NCBI RefSeq assembly: GCF_029871205.1
Contig: NZ_SSOJ01000140.1
Location: forward strand, 1-64,000
Direction of reading: 5' to 3'
Origin: Pseudomonas sp. BN417
GTDB taxonomy: Bacteria; Pseudomonadota; Gammaproteobacteria; Pseudomonadales; Pseudomonadaceae
DNA: 64,000 nt
Shown here: in pieces, positions 6,085 to 49,200 of the stretch
Layout of the letters: each line of letters opens with the position of its first letter
Position numbering within the stretch: position 1 is the first letter of the stretch
Made by a program: the position numbers and the translations under genes
The notes under the pieces: model-generated
Database searches by the model: none
The model's input: the letters and a program-made list of their open reading frames with translations, nothing else
Told to the model about the DNA's origin: nothing

Positions 6085-7548
6085 TCAGCGCTTGAAGTGG
6101 GGCGGGATCTTGGCGTCCACGTTGACCCACACGGAGCGGGCCTCGGTGTAGTCATGGATGGCCTCGAAGCCCATTTCGCGGCCGTAGCCGGACTGGCCGA
6201 CGCCTCCGAAAGGGCTGCCGGGGCTGACGCGCTTGTAGCAGTTGATCCAGCACATGCCGGCCTGGATGTGCGCCGCCATGCGATGGGCACGCTGCAGGTC
6301 GCGGGTCCAGAGGCCGCTGCCGAGGCCGTACTGGGTGCCGTTGGCGATGGCCAGGGCCTCCTCGTCCGTGGAGAAGCGCAGCACGGTGACGAAGGGGCCG
6401 AATACCTCTTCCTGGGCGACGCGGTGATGCGGCTGGGCTTCCACCACCGTCGGCTCGATGTAGTAGCCATCGGCCAGGGCCGGGTCCGTCGGCGCCTTGC
6501 CGCCAGAGAGGATGCGGCCGCCCTGCTCGCGAGCGATGTCCACGTAGGCCAGCACGCGGTCACGGTGCTGGGCGGAGGTCAGCGGGCCCATCTCGGTGTC
6601 CGGGTCCAGCGGGCTGCCCAGGCGGATGGAACGCGCCAGGCCGATGAAGCGTTCAAGGAACTCGTCGGCGATGCGCTCGTGCAGGATCAACCGCGAACCG
6701 GCGATGCAGGCCTGGCCCTGGTTATGGAAGATGGCCCAGGCGGCGCCATTCACGGCGGCGTCGAGGTTGGCGTCCTCGAAGACGATGTTGGCGCCCTTCC
6801 CGCCCAGCTCCAGTTGCACGCGCTTGAGGTTGCCCTGGGAGGCCTCGACTATGCGCCGGCCGGTGGCGGTGGAGCCGGTGAAGGCGATCTTGCCCACGTC
6901 CTCGTGCTCGGCAAGGCGCTGGCCGGCGGTATGGCCGTAGCCCGGCACCACGTTGACCACGCCATCGGGAAAGCCCACTTCCTTCATCAGCTCGGCGATG
7001 CGCAGGGTGGACAGCGGGGTGATCTCCGACGGCTTGATCACCACCGTGTTGCCGGCGGCCAGGGCCGGGCCCATCTTCCAGCTGGTGAACATCAGCGGGA
7101 AATTCCACGGCACGATCTGCCCGACCACGCCGATGGGCTTGCGCTGCACATAGTTGAGGAAGCCGGTTTCCACCGGGATCACCGAGCCCTCGATCTTGTC
7201 GGCCATGCCGCCGAAATAGCGGAAGCAGGCGGCGGTGCGCGGCACGTCGAGGTTGCGCGAGTCGCGGATCGGGTGGCCGGTATCCAGCGACTCCAGCTGC
7301 GCCAGTTCCTCGAGATGCTCCTCGATCTTGTCCGCCAGCTTCAGCAGCAGGCGCCCGCGCTCGGCGCCGGACAGCGCGGCCCAGGCCGGAAAGGCACGTT
7401 TGGCGGCAGCCACCGCCAGGTCGACGTCCTCGGCTTCGGCGGCGGCGATCCGGGTGATCAGCGAGCCATCGTGGGGCGACAGGACGTCGATGGTCCCGCC
7501 CTTCAAGGCCGGAACGAAGCGGCCGTCGATGAAGAGTTGGTTCTGCAT
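6085..7548 (-). CDS. hapE: 4-hydroxymuconic semialdehyde dehydrogenase (ALDH family)
   Basis: The 487-residue protein is a full-length NAD(P)-dependent aldehyde dehydrogenase. It has the general base E247 (LELGGKG) and the catalytic cysteine C281 (NQGQACIAGS). The NAD-binding PWNFPL and FTGSTATGR segments are also present. In this operon it would oxidise 4-hydroxymuconic semialdehyde, the hydroquinone cleavage product, to maleylacetate. That substrate is assigned from context, because the family fold alone does not define it. A GGAG ribosome site precedes the start. A family E repeat separates it from the dioxygenase large-subunit gene. Confidence 0.87.
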   Translation of the reverse strand: MQNQLFIDGRFVPALKGGTIDVLSPHDGSLITRIAAAEAEDVDLAVAAAKRAFPAWAALSGAERGRLLLKLADKIEEHLEELAQLESLDTGHPIRDSRNLDVPRTAACFRYFGGMADKIEGSVIPVETGFLNYVQRKPIGVVGQIVPWNFPLMFTSWKMGPALAAGNTVVIKPSEITPLSTLRIAELMKEVGFPDGVVNVVPGYGHTAGQRLAEHEDVGKIAFTGSTATGRRIVEASQGNLKRVQLELGGKGANIVFEDANLDAAVNGAAWAIFHNQGQACIAGSRLILHERIADEFLERFIGLARSIRLGSPLDPDTEMGPLTSAQHRDRVLAYVDIAREQGGRILSGGKAPTDPALADGYYIEPTVVEAQPHHRVAQEEVFGPFVTVLRFSTDEEALAIANGTQYGLGSGLWTRDLQRAHRMAAHIQAGMCWINCYKRVSPGSPFGGVGQSGYGREMGFEAIHDYTEARSVWVNVDAKIPPHFKR

Positions 7549-7604
7549 GGAAAAGCTCTCCGGGCGCCGCAGCGAACCGCGACGTCTGTGTGAGATGGAT
7601 TAGT

Positions 7605-7640
7605 CCCCTCTCCCCTCCGGGGAGAGGGCTAGGGAGAGGG
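7605..7640. repeat. intergenic palindrome, family E copy 1
   Basis: The sequence CCCCTCTCCCCTCCGGGGAGAGGGCTAGGGAGAGGG forms a short, very GC-rich hairpin. It lies in the 103-bp gap between the dioxygenase large-subunit gene and the dehydrogenase gene. Similar pyrimidine/purine hairpins occur at 35504-35540, 41229-41262 and 49374-49575. Confidence 0.8.
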
Positions 7641-7651
7641 GTGTGGCGACC

Positions 7652-8671
7652 TCAGAACTCGACCGGATACGGCGGGAGCTCACCGCTCTCGTAGCGCTGC
7701 GGCAGGTTCGGCGTGGCGTTCTCCCAGACCAGCAGCATGGAGCGCTTGGTGGAGTAGCCCTGGTGGCGGATGTCCGCCGGCATCGCGCAGATATCGCCCG
7801 GGCGCATGGTGATGCGCGCGCGCGGTGCGCCATCGTCCTTGTCGGCCACGTCCCAGATGATTTCGTCAGACAGCTGCAGGAACCACTCCACGCGGTCATT
7901 GCCGTGGAACACCGGCAGGATGAACTCCTCGGTGGTCGGGCAGAACAGGCTGGCCTTGCACACCGAGCTGACCGAGGGGTTCCAGGTCACGTCGGAGCGG
8001 GACAGGTACTTGTACAGGTTGAAGGCGTGCAGCTCACCTTCGAAGCCCTCGGCGGCGTGGACTTCCGGTTCGTCCTGGGGCACGTCGGCGAACTGGCGGT
8101 TCACCGGCAGGTCGTTGCGCAGCGGCGAGTCGTCCGGCAGGCCGGGCATGCGCCGGGTGGCCACGCGGAAGCGCTCGATGGCCTCGATATTGTCACCATT
8201 CTTGCGGCCGAAGGCGCTGCCGGTTTCTTCCGGCGCGGCGAAGGGGTCGAAGCCGGCGTTGGTCCAGTCGCGCAGGATGGCCTTGAAGGTAGCCATGATC
8301 TTCGGCGTCTCGAACTGCTCGGTGTAGTCGACGCCCGCCTCGCGCAGCACACCATTGAAGGTGCCGGCGTAGAGGTCGACCTTGCCGTAGTGGTTGCGGG
8401 TGCCGATCACCTCGTCGAAGTTCACCCAGCCGTAGAAGAAGCCCCAGGCCACGTCGCGCATGGTGGCGCGCAGGAAGGCGTCGGCGGGGATCAGGTGCGA
8501 ACGCTCCTGGCCCTTGGCCGGCCACTGGATGCGCACGAAGTACTCGTCGCGGGACAGGGTGAAGGCGCCCAGCTTGAAGGTGCGGTAGCCGGTAACGGTA
8601 TCGGGCAGGCTGGCTTCGACTTCATCGGCGGCGAAGCTGGCGGAGGTGTCGAGGGTTTCGAGCATGGCCAT
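7652..8671 (-). CDS. hapD: hydroquinone 1,2-dioxygenase, large subunit
   Basis: The 339-residue protein matches the large (beta) subunit of the two-subunit Fe(II) hydroquinone dioxygenases HapCD/PnpCD. Numbered from this start, it has H256, N258, E262 (HGNDRVE) and H303 (IRHQGYS). From memory these are the iron ligands in the PnpCD structure, with identical numbering, which supports the start at 8671. GAGGA lies 8 bases upstream. With the small subunit it opens the ring of hydroquinone to 4-hydroxymuconic semialdehyde. The in-frame codon at 8734 was rejected because it overlaps the small-subunit gene. There is no signal peptide, so it acts in the cytoplasm. Confidence 0.93.
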   Translation of the reverse strand: MAMLETLDTSASFAADEVEASLPDTVTGYRTFKLGAFTLSRDEYFVRIQWPAKGQERSHLIPADAFLRATMRDVAWGFFYGWVNFDEVIGTRNHYGKVDLYAGTFNGVLREAGVDYTEQFETPKIMATFKAILRDWTNAGFDPFAAPEETGSAFGRKNGDNIEAIERFRVATRRMPGLPDDSPLRNDLPVNRQFADVPQDEPEVHAAEGFEGELHAFNLYKYLSRSDVTWNPSVSSVCKASLFCPTTEEFILPVFHGNDRVEWFLQLSDEIIWDVADKDDGAPRARITMRPGDICAMPADIRHQGYSTKRSMLLVWENATPNLPQRYESGELPPYPVEF

Positions 8672-8709
8672 GGTGGATGTCCTCTTGTTCTGGTTGTCGG
8701 TCGGGGCTG

Positions 8710-9204
8710 TCACTTCAGGCAGATGTCTGCCCACTTCTCCACCGACAGCGGTCCCTTGATGGTCTGCAGCAGCAATACGCCGGGGCGCGCGCTCTCGAAG
8801 CGGTAGGCGCAGCCAGCCGGCAGCAGCGCCTGGTGGCCGCCCTTCAGCAGCACGTAGCCCATGGGGCGCCCCTTGGGCTGATCCCCCGCCAGCCGGGTGC
8901 CCTCGCCTTCGGTCAGCGGCTGGTCGAGCTTGAGGAAATCCACCCGCAGTTCGCCGTCCACGGAAATCGCGAACTCGTCGTGGGCGCAGGTGAACCAGGG
9001 GGACTGGCCTTCGGCGCGCAGGGTCTCGATGACGTAGCCGAGGTTCAGGCCGACCACCACCTTTTCATAGGGGGCGGACTTTGCGGCGACCTCGAAGATG
9101 TTGGAGAAGGCGTAGTGGCGGGCTTCGCCCTGGATGATCTCGATCGAACCCTTGCGATGGTCCTCGAGCGAGCCGAAGACAGTACGGAACGCGGCAGTGC
9201 TCAT
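8710..9204 (-). CDS. hapC: hydroquinone 1,2-dioxygenase, small subunit
   Basis: The 164-residue protein is the small (alpha) partner of the hydroquinone dioxygenase. It has a cupin-like beta-rich fold with the GQSPWFTCAHDEFAISVDGE segment and ends in a WADICLK tail. It is the first gene of the operon, 38 bp upstream of the large-subunit gene. The ATG at 9204 is preferred over the GTG at 9213, because GGTGA lies 5 bases before the ATG. The upstream region carries a dyad shared with the porin/ABC operon (38385-38431). Predicted size fits the roughly 17-18 kDa subunit known for this enzyme class. Confidence 0.9.
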   Translation of the reverse strand: MSTAAFRTVFGSLEDHRKGSIEIIQGEARHYAFSNIFEVAAKSAPYEKVVVGLNLGYVIETLRAEGQSPWFTCAHDEFAISVDGELRVDFLKLDQPLTEGEGTRLAGDQPKGRPMGYVLLKGGHQALLPAGCAYRFESARPGVLLLQTIKGPLSVEKWADICLK

Positions 9205-9633
9205 CTCATTCACCGTTTGTTGTTGTAGTGGGTGAAGTGAACGTTACGAGCAGGGCCGCCGGCCAACAATTCCAGGGCAGGCGACAACAGTGTTTGCGAA
9301 ACGCGAACAGTGCAGAAGAGGCTCTATTACGCGGATTTCAGCGAATCCCCAGACCTCGCTTCAAGGGAAATTTCCGCCCTGCAGCAAGCGATGGACTGGG
9401 CCTATCGCCCAAATAAATCGAATAAATCGATTATGCCAATTCAAAGGAAAAACCTTTCCATTTTGCGTAAAGGTGCTCTTATTTTCTTTCTAACTTATTG
9501 TTTTTAAAAGACCACACCCAAGTATCACTGGCATCGATAGCAATCATCACGCAGCATCACTTCTTGATCGAAATTACATCAGTAACATGGGCCCCGTAGA
9601 CGAATTCCAACCCCCTTCACCGAGGTGCCCAAA
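9205..9633. other. divergent intergenic region, AT-rich centre
   Basis: No credible gene lies in this 429-bp stretch between the hydroquinone operon (leftward) and the secreted repeat-protein gene (rightward). It contains the shared dyad block at 9263-9313. An AT-rich core follows at about 9405-9560, with a direct repeat AATAAATCG at 9412-9420 and 9421-9429. It should hold both promoters, but I cannot place their -10 and -35 boxes with confidence. Confidence 0.7.
9263..9309 (-). promoter_or_regulatory. putative operator upstream of the hydroquinone operon
   Basis: The block contains CCAACAATTCC (9263-9273) and, 27 bases from its start, GTGTTTGCGAA followed by ACGCGAACA (9290-9309). The second part holds an imperfect dyad, GTTTGCG-AAA-CGCGAAC. 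The same two motifs with identical spacing occur at 38385-38431 upstream of the porin/ABC operon. By hand count, 38 of 51 aligned positions agree. It ends 59 bp before the first gene. The binding protein is unknown, and a LysR regulator is only one possibility. Confidence 0.6.
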
Positions 9634-10137
9634 ATGAAAAAGCAAATCCTTGCCAGCCTGTTCATCGCCAGCCTGTCCGCCTCTGCTTTTGCGCTGTCCG
9701 TCGCGGAGGGTGGCTCCGATCACACCAGCATCCACCGCGTAGCCGAAGGCGGTGCCGATCGCACTGGCGCCAACCGTATCGCTGAAAGCGGTGCCGAACG
9801 TTCCGAGTCCCTGCGTGTAGCCGAAGGTGGTTCCGACCGCACCAAGGGCTTCGACGTAGCTGAAGGCGGCTCCGACCGCACCAAGGGCTTCGACGTAGCC
9901 GAAGGCGGCTCCGACCGCACCAAGGGCTTCGACGTCGCTGAAGGCGGTTCCGACCGCACCAAGGGCTTCGACGTAGCCGAAGGCGGCTCCGACCGCACCA
10001 AGGGCTTCGATGTCGCTGAAGGTGGTTCCGACCGCACCAAGGGCTTCGACGTAGCCGAAGGTGGTTCCGACCGAACCAAGGGCTTCGATGTCGCTGAAGG
10101 TGGTTCCGACCGCACTGGCGCCAACCGCATCAGCTGA
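9634..10137 (+). CDS. secreted protein of eleven 13-residue tandem repeats
   Basis: I do not recognise a characterised family. The 167-residue protein has a signal peptide (about residues 1-20, MKKQILASLFIASLSASAFA). The rest is almost entirely eleven 13-residue units with consensus VAEGGSDRTKGFD. The first three units are divergent (endings SIHR, GANR, ESLR), seven are near-identical KGFD units, and the last ends GANR before a two-residue IS tail. In DNA this is a 39-bp tandem array with mostly synonymous differences, suggesting recent expansion. The units are acidic and rich in Gly, Ser and Asp, without cysteine. The ATG at 9634 is chosen because GAGG lies 8 bases upstream. A strong terminator follows. 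Export to the periplasm or beyond is inferred. Confidence 0.85.
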   Translation: MKKQILASLFIASLSASAFALSVAEGGSDHTSIHRVAEGGADRTGANRIAESGAERSESLRVAEGGSDRTKGFDVAEGGSDRTKGFDVAEGGSDRTKGFDVAEGGSDRTKGFDVAEGGSDRTKGFDVAEGGSDRTKGFDVAEGGSDRTKGFDVAEGGSDRTGANRIS

Positions 10138-10191
10138 TCCCGAGGCAACCAGAGGCAGGCAATCACGATGTATGCATCCCCTCGACAGGCA

Positions 10192-10222
10192 GAAGGCGCC
10201 ACTTGTGGCGCCTTCTTTCTTT
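10192..10222 (+). terminator. rho-independent terminator of the repeat-protein gene
   Basis: A perfect 10-bp stem, GAAGGCGCCA / TGGCGCCTTC, with loop CTTG is followed by TTTCTTTTT. It starts 54 bp past the stop of the 13-residue-repeat gene. Confidence 0.93.
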
Positions 10223-10251
10223 TTGGGAAATGCAAAGGGAACCGTTCTTCC

Positions 10252-10293
10252 TGCGGGGGCGATTTCAATCGCTGAGCAGACCGCAGGGCTGTC
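10252..10293. repeat. half copy of family A repeat
   Basis: The sequence TGCGGGGGCGATTTCAATCG and the following GCTGAGCAGACCGCAGGGCTGTCC resemble one arm of the family A element. It matches the reversed right arm of the copy at 38539-38638. No complementary second arm is visible before the next gene, so this is a partial copy. Confidence 0.7.
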
Positions 10294-10320
10294 CTCCCGA
10301 CCATCCGACGAGCTTCGCCA

Positions 10321-10908
10321 TTACGTCCCCTTCCCCCGCAACTCCTTCGCCACCCTGAACTGCATCTCGTAGGCCGGTCCTTCCACGCTGTCCGGGTCGC
10401 GGGTGTAGCGCGCCGCGAACTCCTCCACGCCCCATTCCCGGTACTGCTGCACATGCCGGAGCTCATGGGCCCAAAGCGCCAGATCCTCCGTGGCGCCCTC
10501 GGGGAAGCGGAAGACGATGATGTCGACAAGGGTAACGGCCTTGATATCCGGGTTCTGCAGCATGGCGCTGGCGGCACTGAGCTCGCTGCTGTCGCCGATC
10601 CGGTAACGCACCGCGTCCAGCAGCGCGGCATCGTAATAAGGCAGCAACTGGCGCCTGATCTCGGGCGGAATAGCCTCGGTTCCCGCAGCGGCCGCAGCCG
10701 CGCGGGATTGCACCAGCCACTGCTGCAAGGCGTCGGCCGCCACCTGGGTGACCTCGCCGGGCAACGGCCCTATCACCTCCCTGGCATCGGGCAGGCAGAT
10801 GCAGGAGGTCACGCAGACCTCGTACTGCCCCGGCGGACAGGCCAGAACTGCGGCATGAAGACTGAACGCGCCGAGTGCCAGCGCGATCCTTGGAACGAAC
10901 TTGGCCAT
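10321..10908 (-). CDS. exported protein with HELRH metalloprotease-like motif (DUF4157-like)
   Basis: The 195-residue protein begins with a signal peptide (ALGAFSLHAAVLA) followed directly by a cysteine. It could be a lipoprotein (VLAC) or a cleaved periplasmic protein. A cysteine-rich patch (CPPGQYEVC, CICLP) follows. Near the C-terminus is WAHELRHVQQYREWG, an HExxH motif like that of the DUF4157 putative metalloprotease domain. A distal third zinc ligand is not evident, so activity is uncertain. The start at 10908 has AGAGG 5 bases upstream and gives a proper signal peptide. The longer reading frame to 11037 has none. The gene is divergent from the mechanosensitive-channel gene. Confidence 0.72.
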   Translation of the reverse strand: MAKFVPRIALALGAFSLHAAVLACPPGQYEVCVTSCICLPDAREVIGPLPGEVTQVAADALQQWLVQSRAAAAAAGTEAIPPEIRRQLLPYYDAALLDAVRYRIGDSSELSAASAMLQNPDIKAVTLVDIIVFRFPEGATEDLALWAHELRHVQQYREWGVEEFAARYTRDPDSVEGPAYEMQFRVAKELRGKGT

Positions 10909-11054
10909 CTGACCCTCTTCGGTACGTTCGAGGTGCTCCAACTGCTCTGACTCCGTTTCCGGGGAAATGGCGCAACCCTTCGGCCAACCGGCCCATACCG
11001 CCTGGGTGCGGCGCTCTGCTAACGTGATGCAGGCCATCTCGCGGAAGGGAATTC

Positions 11055-44768: not shown

Positions 44769-46268
44769 TCAGGGGGTTTCCTCGGAATCCGAATCCACCT
44801 TCTCCAGCTGCCCCTGGTCCCAACCCCCGCCGAGGGCGGCGATCAGCTGGACACTGGTGGTCAGGCGGCTGCCGAGCAGGGTGAGGACGGTGCGCTCGTT
44901 GTTCAGGGCGGTGGCCTGGTTGGTGACCACACTGTTGTAGTCCACGGTACCGGCCTTGTACTGGTTGCTGATCAGGCGCAGCGCTTCGCGGGCGGCGTCC
45001 AGGGCCTCCTGCTGCACCCCGCTCTCCTCTTCCAGCACATCGAGCTGGACCATGTAGTCCTCGGCTTCGCGGAAGCTGTCGAGCACGGTCTGGCGGTAGA
45101 AGGCCACAGTCTGGTCGTAGCTGGCCTCGGCCTGGGCCACCTGGGAGCGGATCAGGCCACCGTCGAACAGGGTCATGGCGAATTCCGGGCCGATGGACCA
45201 GAAGCGGTTGGGCGTGGTGATCCAGTCCTGCAGGCTGCCGCTGCGGTAGCCGCCGGCGGCGCTCAGGCTGAGGCTGGGGAAGTAGGCCGACTTGGCCACG
45301 CCGATCTGGGCGTTGGCGGCCATCACGTCGCGCTCGGCGGTGGCCACGTCCGGGCGTCGTTCCAGCAGTTGCGACGGCAGCAGGGTCGGCACTTCGGGCA
45401 GCGCCGGCACGCTGTCCACCTCGGCCAGGCTGAACTCCGACGGCGGCAGGCCCACCAGCACGGCGATGGCGTTCTCCAGCTGGGCACGCTGGTACTTGAG
45501 GTCGATGGCCTGGGCCTGGGTGCTCTTCAGCTGGGTGGTGGCCTGGGCCACATCGGCGCGGGTGACTATGCCGGCCCTGTACTGGTTCTCGGTGAGGGTC
45601 AGGGCGCGCTGGTAGGCGGCGATGGTGGCCTCGAGCAGGCGCTTCTGGGCGTCCAGCACGCGCAGCTGCAGGTAGTTCTGCGCCAGTTCCGACTGCAGGC
45701 TGAGGCGCACGGCGGCGAGGTCGGCGGCGCTGCCCTGCATGCTCGCGGTGTCGGCCTCCAGTTGCCGGCGCAGCTTGCCCCAGAGGTCGATTTCCCAGTT
45801 CACCCCGAGGCTGGCGTCATAGCTCTTGGACACGCCGCCGCCACCGGAGCTGGTGACGGTGGAGCCGTCCGCGAGGCGTACCGTGCTGTCGCCACCGCCC
45901 TGCCCCGAGCGGGTCTTGCCAGCGTTGGCGGTGACCGAGGGGAAGAAGGACGCGCGGGCGCCACGGGCCAGGGCCTGGGCCTGGCGGTACTGGGCGACGG
46001 ACTGGGCCAGAGTCTGGTTGGAGGCCTCCAGGCGCCGCTGCAGGTCGTCGAGGGTGGCGTCGCCGTACAGCTCCCACCAGCGGCCACGGTGTTCCAGGTC
46101 CGCCGGGCTGGCCAGGGTCCAGCCTTCGGCGTGCTTGAACTGCGCCGGCACGCTCTGCTCCGGTCGCTGGTAATCCGGGCCTATGGCGCAGCCGGCGAGC
46201 AGCAGGCCGGCAAGGGCCAGGGCCACGGCGCGGCGCAGGGGTTTGACGGGAAGTGCGGCGGTGTTCAT
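44769..46268 (-). CDS. opmB: outer-membrane efflux lipoprotein OpmB (NodT family)
   Basis: The 499-residue protein is a TolC-like outer-membrane factor. It has a lipoprotein signal (LAGLLLAGC, lipidation near C27), then CAIGPDYQRPE as typical of NodT/OprM proteins, and two TolC-type repeats rich in long helices. Its start overlaps the MuxC stop (ATGA). It provides the exit duct for the MuxABC pump, matching the Pseudomonas aeruginosa muxABC-opmB order. Confidence 0.92.
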   Translation of the reverse strand: MNTAALPVKPLRRAVALALAGLLLAGCAIGPDYQRPEQSVPAQFKHAEGWTLASPADLEHRGRWWELYGDATLDDLQRRLEASNQTLAQSVAQYRQAQALARGARASFFPSVTANAGKTRSGQGGGDSTVRLADGSTVTSSGGGGVSKSYDASLGVNWEIDLWGKLRRQLEADTASMQGSAADLAAVRLSLQSELAQNYLQLRVLDAQKRLLEATIAAYQRALTLTENQYRAGIVTRADVAQATTQLKSTQAQAIDLKYQRAQLENAIAVLVGLPPSEFSLAEVDSVPALPEVPTLLPSQLLERRPDVATAERDVMAANAQIGVAKSAYFPSLSLSAAGGYRSGSLQDWITTPNRFWSIGPEFAMTLFDGGLIRSQVAQAEASYDQTVAFYRQTVLDSFREAEDYMVQLDVLEEESGVQQEALDAAREALRLISNQYKAGTVDYNSVVTNQATALNNERTVLTLLGSRLTTSVQLIAALGGGWDQGQLEKVDSDSEETP

Positions 46269-49200
46269 AGCGGTGTTTCCAAAGCAGCGTCGGTACGAAC
46301 GCCGCGCCAGCGGTTGAAGCGGTGGCGCAGACGGTCGAGGTAGAGGTAGACCACGGGGGTGGTGTAGAGGGTCAGCAACTGGCTCAGCACCAGGCCGCCG
46401 ATGATGGCCATGCCCAGGGGCTGGCGCATTTCCGCCCCCTCGGTGCCGCCGATCAGCAGCGGCACGGCGCCGAGGATGGCGGCGATGGTGGTCATCAGGA
46501 TCGGCCGCAGGCGCAGCAGGCAGGCCTGGCGGATGGACTCGTCCGGGGACATCCCATCCTGGCGCTCCAGTTGCAGGGCGAGGTCGATCATCATGATGGC
46601 GTTCTTCTTCACCACGCCGATCAACAGGAACAGGCCGAGCAGCGAGATCAGGCTGAACTCCCCGCCGGTGAGCAGGATCGCCAGCAGCGCCCCGACGCCC
46701 GCCGAAGGCAGCGTGGAAAGGATGGTCAGCGGGTGGATGTAGCTCTCGTAGAGGATGCCCAGCACCAGGTACACCAGCACCAGGGCGGCGAGAATCATCC
46801 AGGGCTGGTTCTGCTGGGTAGTCTGGAAGGCATCGGCGCTGCCGCCCATGCGGGCGATCACCGAGCTGGGCAGGCCGATGGCGGCCACCGCCTTCTCGAT
46901 GGCCACGGTGGCCTTGTCCAGGCTGACGCCGGGCGCCAGGTCGAAGGCGATGCTTTCCGAGGCGAACTGGCCCTCATGGTTGACCCGGTCTTCCTCCAGG
47001 CTGCGCTCGTAGCGGGCGAAGCTGGACAGCGGCACCCGCTGGCCATCGGCGGTGATCAGCTGGACCTGCTTGAGGGTTTCCGGATCCCGGGCGTACTTCG
47101 GGTTGACCTCCATCACCACCTGGTACTGGTTCAGGGTGTCGTAGATGGTGGAAATCTGCCGCTGGCTGTAGGCGTTGTTCAGCGCCGAGCTGACCATGGC
47201 CATGTCCACCCCCAGGCGCTTGGCGGTGTCACGGTCCACCACCAGGGTGATCTGCTGGGCGCCCTCGCCTTCGTTGGCGTCGATGGCGGTGAGCTCCGGC
47301 AGGGACTTCAGCGCAGCGGTGACTTTCGGGCCCCAGGTGCGCAGGTCGGTCAGTTCGCCGGACTGCAGCACGTACTCGTATTGCGAGCTGCGCTGCTCGC
47401 GGCCGCCGCCGAACTGCAGGTCCTGGTCGGCCATCAGCATCAACCGGCCGCCGGGTACCTTGGGCAGGCTGGCGCGCAGCCGCTCGATGACCTTCTGCGC
47501 CGAAACCTTGCGCTCCTTGATCGGCTTCAGGCGCACGATCATGAAGGCGTTGTTGATGCCGCCGCTGCCGCCGATGAAGCCGGCCACGCTTTCCACCGCC
47601 GGGTCCTCGAGCACGGCGCGGCGGAAGATTTCCATCTTCGGCTGCATCACGCTGAAGGACAGGCCGTCGTCGCCGCGGATGAAACCGATCAGCTGGCCGG
47701 TGTCCTGCTGCGGCAGGAAGGTCTTGGGCACCAGCACATAGAGGGCGACGTTGCAGGCGATGGTCACCAGCAGGCTGGCCAGGGTCAGGCGCGGATGGCG
47801 CAGGGCCACGCCCAGGGTACGGTCGTAGGCGCCGACCATGCGCTGGTGCAGCGCTTCGCTCCAGCGTTGCAGGCGGCTGTCCTGGTCCGGCACATGAGGC
47901 TTCAGCCAGCGCGCGCTGAGCATGGGCGTCAGGGTCAGGGACACCAGCAGCGAGACCAGTATGGCCACCGCCAGGGTCAGGGAGAACTCGCGGAACAGCC
48001 GGTCGATGATGCCGCCCATGAACAGGATGGAGACGAACACCGCCACCAGCGAGAGGTTCATCGACAGCAGGGTGAAGCCCACCTCGCGGGTGCCCTGCAA
48101 CGCCGCCTTGAAGGGCGCCATGCCGTTGTTGATGTGCCGGGAGATGTTCTCCAGCACCACGATGGCATCGTCCACCACCAGGCCGGCGGCGAGGATCAGT
48201 GCCATCAGCGACAGCACGTTGAGGGAGAAGCCCATCAGGTACATCACGGCGAAGGTGCCCACCAGCGACACCGGTACCGCCAGCGCCGGGATCAGCGAGG
48301 CGCGCAGGTTGCCGAGGAACAGGTAGACCACCAGTATCACCAGCGCCACCGCGATCAGCAGGGTGCGCTCGGCTTCGTGCAGGGTGGCGCGGATCACGGG
48401 TGAACGGTCCATCGCCAGGTCCAGCTTGACGCTGGCCGGCAGTACCGCCTGCAGCGCGGGAAGCTGCTGCTTGATGCTTTCGATGGTCTCGATGATGTTG
48501 GCACCGGCCTGGCGGTTGATCACCAGCAGCACCGCCGAGTCGTCGTTGAAGAAGCCGCTGTTGTAGCGGTCTTCCACCGCGTCACGGACCTTGGCCACGT
48601 CGCCCAGGCGCAGCGCGGCGCCGTCCTGGTAGCGGAGGATCAGCGGCGCGTAGTCGGCGGCCTTCTCCAGCTGGTCGTTGGCGCCCACCTGCCAATGCCG
48701 GCCGGCATCTTCCACCGCGCCCTTGGGGCGGCGTTGATTGGCCGCAGCGATGGTGCTGCGCACGTCGTCCAGGGCGATGCCGTATTGAGTCAGCAACTGC
48801 GGTTCCAGCTCCACCCGCACCGCCGGCAGGGAGCTGCCGCCGATCTGCACTTCGCCCACGCCCCTGACCTGGGACAGGCTCTGGGCCAGGATGGTGGACG
48901 CGAGGTCGTAGAGCTGGCCTTTCTCCTTTACGTCGGAGGTCAACGACAGCACCATGATCGGCGCCTGGGACGGATTGACCTTCTTGTAGGTGGGCATGCT
49001 GCGCATGCCGCTCGGCAGCAGGTTGCGCGAGGCATTGATGGCCGCCTGCACGTCGCGGGCCGCGCCGTTGATGTCGCGGTCCAGGTCGAACTGCACGATG
49101 ATCCGCGTCGAGCCCTGGCTGGTGCGGCTGGTCATCTGGCTGATCCCGGCGATGGTACCGAGGGACCGCTCCAGCGGCGTGGTGACGCTGGAGGCCATGA

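Follow-up and report, generated by a model that had tools for sequence, protein, structure and literature searches.

We interpret the gene at 9634-10137 of the window (the window being the whole 64,000-nucleotide stretch of Pseudomonas sp. BN417 DNA analysed here) as encoding an exported, intrinsically disordered tandem-repeat protein which would belong to the MexT stress regulon, and this, taken together with the mechanism below, is the explanation that we favour, though with some reserve. The parts of it which the sequence itself supports are the signal peptide, the selected repeat units, the operator match, the MexT orthologue of the source genome and the location of a copy near mexT in 15/18 congeneric genomes. 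Under the mechanism we propose, electrophile, nitrosative or hypochlorous stress would activate MexT, which would bind both dyads upstream of the gene and drive transcription from a weak promoter, and the protein would then be exported by Sec and be soluble in the periplasm or beyond. The array would present a single short functional motif many times over, in which a near-invariant Arg lies beside an acidic residue, with unit number setting the dose as arrays gain or lose whole units, and its protective job would be to bind multivalently to something that arises in the envelope under this stress, or to react with it sacrificially. We regard a protective envelope role as plausible rather than probable.

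The repeat gene, its array and its relatives

The features of the gene and its surroundings are listed here with their window coordinates and the evidence used for each.

7655-8734, reverse strand: hydroquinone 1,2-dioxygenase large subunit with a PnpD N-terminal domain (Pfam)
8713-9213, reverse strand: small ORF, the presumed small subunit, with no Pfam match, lying between the dioxygenase and repeat genes
9417-9434, forward strand: distal ATC-N9-GAT dyad ATCGAATAAATCGATTAT (promoter alignment)
9524-9547, forward strand: proximal LysR/MexT-type box ATCACTGGCATCGATAGCAATCAT, which includes ATCA-N7-CGAT at 9524-9538 (promoter alignment and pattern search)
9560-9588, forward strand: putative promoter CTTCTT-N17-TAACAT with a poor -35 (by eye from the alignment)
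9634-10137, forward strand: coding sequence of the 167 aa, predicted exported tandem-repeat protein (ORF translation)
9634-9693, forward strand: signal peptide MKKQILASLFIASLSASAFA (cleavage after AFA, judged by eye)
9700-10128, forward strand: eleven 13-aa units, ending just before the IS-stop
9817-10089, forward strand: seven consecutive identical units VAEGGSDRTKGFD (translation)
10191-10216, forward strand: terminator-like hairpin with a T run after it (pattern scan and downstream conservation)

The first-pass annotation had described a secreted protein made of eleven 13-residue repeats, seven of them near-identical and the ends divergent, and this description was reproduced by the translation and by TRF. 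The protein consists of the signal peptide, LS, the eleven units, IS and a stop, with units 1-3 and the final unit diverging from VAEGGSDRTKGFD, and the 39-bp array reported by TRF (9817-10115, 7.7 copies, 91% matches) had the highest score (479) of the six rows for the window. An N-terminus resembling the window signal peptide was seen in most of the family members displayed, and we consider the window protein very probably exported. The annotation had also given the gene its own terminator, which stands in part, as the hairpin is accompanied by a conserved downstream stretch (mostly 75-140 bases 3′ of the stop, shared among many repeat-gene copies), though the hairpin pattern alone is not above chance (one found against a shuffle mean of 1.4). 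We note that a 303-aa open frame (9720-10631, reverse strand) runs antisense through the array, which we take as a by-product of the 39-bp periodicity and not as a candidate gene, and that the next gene 3′ of the array (10324-11037, reverse strand) encodes a protein with an eCIS_core domain (PF13699).

The protein is under selection, because each of the seven identical protein units has a DNA sequence of its own and all six variable columns among these sequences are third codon positions, and this third-position-only variation rules out a chance repeat or a non-coding array. For all eleven units the pN/pS ratio was 0.45 in frame, compared with 1.07 and 1.44 in the two other frames. A check of frame conservation across homologues, set in advance, found that the frame was kept, with pN/pS below 1 in each of 68 family genes (median 0.395; the set comprised genes of three or more units and covers 68 of 69 distinct genes). 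The ratio was near-neutral in three of them (L122, 0.94; L121, 0.92; L047, 0.80), which are arrays of alternating unit types.

The family is widespread amongst the pseudomonads, and the source genome alone carries four repeat genes, in the window and on contigs C139, C160 and C126. Matches at 1e-6 were found in 18/18 congeneric genomes (2-11 places each), and amongst 198 sampled family-level genomes a profile search was positive in 92 at 1e-8, and the window protein as sole query in 62 at 1e-4. Short peptide patterns, which reach close relatives only, were run against named genomes and found 37 loci, all titled Pseudomonas; the pattern search of viral contigs, with the same reach, found no relative, and a plasmid search matched one record annotated as a hypothetical protein. 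Arrays range from 3 to 24 units across the family with a spacing of mostly 13 and at times 12 or 14 residues, and unit number changes readily, since orthologues at the window locus (beside the hydroquinone dioxygenase genes) have 6 to 15 units, one with a masked gap being omitted. It should be noted that copy and unit numbers from draft genomes are unreliable because several contigs end at repeat genes (those of L027, L033, L052, L054, L055 and L058 stop inside them or within about 100 bases). The 24-unit member comes from Pseudomonas sp. AOB-7 (L045:4001-5044, IAADGADRVGVNR) and is nearly homogeneous (pS 0.105), which suggests a recent expansion. Separately, an IS110-like transposase gene (by eye) lies some 640 bases downstream of the C139 copy (L002/L136, G000:C139 about 45989-47900), which makes mobility a conceivable cause of the dispersal of the copies.

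Unit motif and properties of the protein

The unit core can be written as (V/I)AExG(S/A)(D/E)R. Across 657 units taken from the 13-residue genes only and anchored on xAxxG (the anchor itself fixes positions 2 and 5), V/I/L was found at position 1 in 99%, E at position 3 in 91%, D/E at position 7 in 98% and R at position 8 in 98%, with positions 10-12 variable and R present at position 13 in 71% and at position 12 in 10%. The mature window protein is 20% Gly with a GRAVY of -0.88, contains no W, Y, C or M, has seven Lys, and classes as disordered by the charge-hydropathy criterion. AlphaFold gave no confident fold (mean pLDDT 31.9), which is weak evidence of disorder because the alignment had 8 rows. 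Taken together, these predictions suggest that the protein is probably intrinsically disordered, and the low pLDDT and GRAVY also support the extended polypeptide proposed in the first-pass annotation. The window protein matched no Pfam family at E up to 10, the best E in a PDB sequence search was 0.22, the PHROGs matches were all weak (E 0.027 and worse), and a literature search by motif letters gave nothing related.

These properties also invite a comparison with the hydrophilins and the KGG/GsiB repeat proteins, which are glycine-rich, very hydrophilic and linked to stress. The window protein has both the high Gly content and the high hydrophilicity (20% and -0.88, as above) of the hydrophilin definition, but it differs from these proteins in having a signal for export, a different repeat and no Pfam match. 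It might then act as a soluble Gly/Asp/Ser/Arg polymer which guards periplasmic proteins through its bulk properties, with the motif binding nothing, as the composition, the charge-hydropathy position and the low pLDDT would all allow. For such a shield, composition would suffice, yet positions 3, 7 and 8 are conserved (91%, 98% and 98%) while positions 10-12 vary, and we consider this explanation unlikely.

Operator, MexT and the pump neighbourhood

The repeat gene is divergent from the hydroquinone dioxygenase gene, and a tblastn search found both divergent neighbours (7655-9213) beside the repeat gene in other loci. The promoter had been annotated as shared with the hydroquinone operon region, and although the divergent arrangement holds, sharing is the weaker part of that claim: other copies have about 220 upstream bases and the downstream stretch in common with the window copy while the wider flanks differ, and the promoter can be assigned to the repeat gene because these upstream bases travel with it to other loci. 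The aligned upstream regions contain a conserved ATC-N9-GAT-N4-ACYAT-like block just 5′ of the poor promoter, many copies have a further dyad around -210, and a sigma-70 consensus scan upstream of the window gene found no site.

The box in the window, ATCACTGGCATCGAT (9524-9538), fits the MexT consensus ATCA(N)7CGAT obtained by footprinting (PMC11144800), and the MexT box is also given as ATYA(N7)YGAT (PMC11432991). We compared 67 promoters (the 69 distinct 13-residue genes minus two with too little upstream DNA) and found ATY-N8-YGAT at -120 to -100 before the start in 67/67, compared with 2, 11, 0 and 1 of 67 in four other 21-base slots and 30/67 in the distal-box slot, a conservation which is partly ancestry because the repeat-gene promoters are homologous. 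The same slot contained ATC-N9-GAT in 59/67 and ATYA-N7-YGAT in 39/67 promoters, and ATC-N9-GAT was present at -220 to -200 in 32/67.

When the source genome (6.56 Mb) was searched with the stricter motif ATCA-N5-RTCGAT-N4-ACYAT, there were 2 exact, 2 one-mismatch and 36 two-mismatch matches, or 40 compared with 5 in all for the reversed control pattern. One exact match belongs to the C139 paralogue and the other precedes an operon that contains an ArsR gene (identified by Pfam) and, by eye, genes for MFS-like and old-yellow-enzyme-like proteins; it resembles pyeRM-xenB, which in P. aeruginosa is under MexT regulation (PMC7950407). The one-mismatch matches are the window site and a site inside a long ORF on C85, and the sites of the C126 and C160 paralogues have two mismatches. 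The box motif alone is not decisive, because the looser pattern ATC-N9-GAT-N4-ACYATC has eight matches in the source genome, two of which were inspected. The mexE upstream regions of the source genome and of G130, a P. aeruginosa-group genome, carry ATCA-N7-TGAT.

The source genome has a MexT orthologue (C142:12339-13250, 88% identity to the G130 MexT), two further MexT-like proteins at 65-68%, and a mexEF-oprN operon (MexE, 79%). In 15/18 congeneric genomes mexT has a repeat gene no more than 25 kb away, compared with 0.67 expected at random when ancestry is ignored (the count rests on 85 repeat-gene places copied by hand), and in G000 (the source genome), G001 and G016 the mexT contig is without a repeat gene. 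In G002 (L215) the gene order is mexF, mexE, mexT, mexS, other genes, the repeat gene and the hydroquinone operon, which places the window-type locus beside mexFE-mexT-mexS. In the larger set of 198 genomes, a MexT orthologue (1e-145) was found in 91 of the 92 bearing repeats, 42 of the 133 with MexT had no detected repeat gene and 64 had neither, and both this co-occurrence and the mexT neighbourhood are partly ancestry because they are confounded by phylogeny (and the co-occurrence by thresholds as well). From the operator match and this context, we would place the window repeat gene under MexT control with good confidence. As an aside, some 15 kb separate mexT from mexE in the source genome (L214/L134, G000:C142:12339-28226), whereas the two are adjacent in G003 and G002, and an integrase-like ORF (by eye) lies right after mexT at about 13398 on the same contig; this looks like a genomic island inserted between the two genes.

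The neighbourhood of the pump genes raises the possibility that MexEF-OprN, or some other protein of the envelope, is the binding partner of each AExG(S/A)(D/E)R unit, in which case the long proteins would be multivalent. A single-motif protein with a predicted export signal (SGGGDR, once SGGAER) is encoded directly 3′ of an oprN gene for 11/11 of its nearest relatives within the genus, with one per genome in 11/18 genomes, and a 48-aa predicted exported protein with EGGSDRL lies inside a second RND pump cluster of the source genome (L133, G000:C82:6000-20000, at about 7005-10519), together with MexE-like and MexF-like genes, a LysR-like gene, and AhpD-like and cupin-like genes (the last two by eye). 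However, no OprN-like gene lies within 1.5 kb of the remaining 13 of 24 single-motif places and C154 is situated away from the pumps, and a role as a pump partner seems to us rather doubtful.

Dyads of the ATC-N9-GAT type are common to LysR regulators in general, and the conserved box might instead be read by one other than MexT. Two candidates would be the further MexT-like proteins of the source genome, and another LysR regulator, PA2206, is reported to bind the promoter of PA4881 (PMC3557286), a P. aeruginosa gene to which we return below. Against this, PAO1 without mexT shows log2 changes of -6.5 for PA4881 and -5.8 for PA4623 (PMC12607905), and the pyeRM-xenB-like motif match and the mexT neighbourhood of the repeat genes also point to MexT, making a different regulator improbable. 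Even under the MexT explanation which we prefer, it should be noted that the regulon is not always protective, because P. taiwanensis tolerates HMF better once mexT is lost (PMC11144800).

Either a carbonyl sponge or a binding motif would accord with the conserved Arg and its acidic neighbour. In the first case the Arg next to Asp/Glu in each unit would take up reactive carbonyls of the glyoxal or methylglyoxal type in the periplasm, which to our minds is a long shot. The further suggestion that these carbonyls are made or met during the stress that activates MexT, unit number and gene copies determining the capacity, is equally speculative. The frequency of Arg at position 8 (98% of the 657 units) would fit, as would the 68 mature proteins that we examined (13-residue genes only, with ends set by the AxA rule and one protein with a masked stretch omitted), in which Cys is found in 0/68 and Lys is absent from 31/68. 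Counting against it, the core Arg is Gln in some P. aeruginosa-group units, though another Arg is present there. The lack of Cys in all 68 also argues against a thiol sink.

Comparison with known systems

The only NCBIfam match to the window protein was NF041599, the PtrA N-terminal domain (63.7 bits against a cut-off of 31), and like PtrA (PA2808) it has a signal peptide and then, by the model match, a GGxDR motif. It could by this token be a metal-binding periplasmic protein of the PtrA kind involved in copper or zinc tolerance. However, the 63.7 bits are the sum over 10 stretches, with the N-terminal stretch alone giving 15 bits, and the window protein passes the cut-off only through the summing of its repeats. 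Scores vary similarly among relatives (L130, 84.3; L127, 29.1; the PA4881-like protein, 23.5; no match for the 24-unit L045), and the 48-aa EGGSDRL protein of L133 exceeds the cut-off at 35.5 bits. PtrA is short and reportedly induced by Cu/Zn, whereas the window protein has 11 motifs and a MexT-type box. Few His and Met (Met in 4/68 and His in 38/68 mature proteins, with Cys in none) also argue against the usual copper sink for the 13-residue genes, and we judge a PtrA-like function to be quite improbable. As a name for these repeat proteins, the database label "co-regulatory protein PtrA N-terminal domain" probably misleads; literature searches with the text "co-regulatory protein PtrA", and with the annotation "phage infection protein" together with MexT, returned no match.

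RTX calcium repeats are Gly/Asp-rich tandem units, as are the units of the window protein, and these acidic repeats had led the first-pass annotation to propose a Ca-binding or surface-coating protein, or a precursor cut into peptides. The signal peptide would fit as well, but we regard a Ca-binding adhesin, a surface coat and a precursor of 13-residue peptides all as very improbable: calcium binding gained no specific support, as there is no RTX nonapeptide GGxGxDxUx in the window translation (by eye) and no Pfam match at E up to 10, and a precursor gained none either, since no dibasic site can be seen by eye in the window protein and, although RR or KR ends each unit in some relatives (L128, L130), for which cutting is conceivable, the distribution of R (71% at position 13 and 10% at position 12 in the 657 units) leaves no site shared across the family.

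The closest comparison is with P. aeruginosa. G130 has contiguous mexS, mexT and mexEF-oprN and two relatives of the repeat gene, one beside a two-partner secretion gene and the other flanked by an AsmA-type gene and a response regulator, which on the basis of PAO1 gene order we take to be PA4623 and PA4881. The repeat-family profile finds the PA4623-like protein of G130 at 1.4e-10 and the PA4881-like protein at 5.2e-5, and the link to PA4881 rests on the profile, the promoter and the architecture because pairwise BLASTP of the window protein gives only E 0.059. PA4881 has been described, in one line, as a tandem repeat protein under MexT control, and its mutant did not have raised H2O2 sensitivity (PMC3557286); to this extent a MexT-controlled tandem-repeat protein is already known. 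Both genes are listed with negative values for parS and parR mutants (PA4881, -10.68 and -9.13; PA4623, -4.55 and -4.91; PMC3848899), and both are reported to be up after treatment with an enynone that induces MexEF-OprN (PMC10848761), and PA4881 is termed uncharacterised or hypothetical in the literature (PMC3557286 and PMC3848899 among the sources). Searches of the literature, with most subscription journals outside their scope, returned nothing on the 13-residue multi-copy arrays, on their operator or on a link to the oprN-adjacent protein. As PA4881 and PA4623 are among the most MexT-dependent genes of P. aeruginosa, placing them in a family with an operator, a motif, an oprN-adjacent cousin and a variable unit number offers a way to learn what this part of the MexT response does, and opens motif, dose and ligand to testing in environmental species.

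The window gene shares with the PA4881/PA4623 type a signal peptide followed by tandem units with the core (V/I/L)A-x-x-GS(D/E)(R/Q)T, a box of the MexT consensus and a MexT in the genome. The PA4881-like promoter has a LysR-type box (ATCATCGGGATCGAT) about 107 bases before the start, as in the 13-residue genes, and an AsmA-type gene neighbours both the C160 paralogue and the PA4881-like gene. In G130 the promoter of the PA4623-like gene matches neither ATC-N9-GAT nor ATYA-N7-YGAT, and by eye it has only ATT-N8-CGAT. The two types differ in unit length, with the PA4881/PA4623-like units having about 23 residues in G130 and 21 in further genomes of its genus, compared with 13, and an added DRLHKxM-type segment which contains His and Met. 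In some of these units the core Arg is replaced by Gln, and such units carry another Arg. Finally, the P. aeruginosa-type genus has mostly one or two genes per genome, in contrast to the several dispersed arrays of the 13-residue type.
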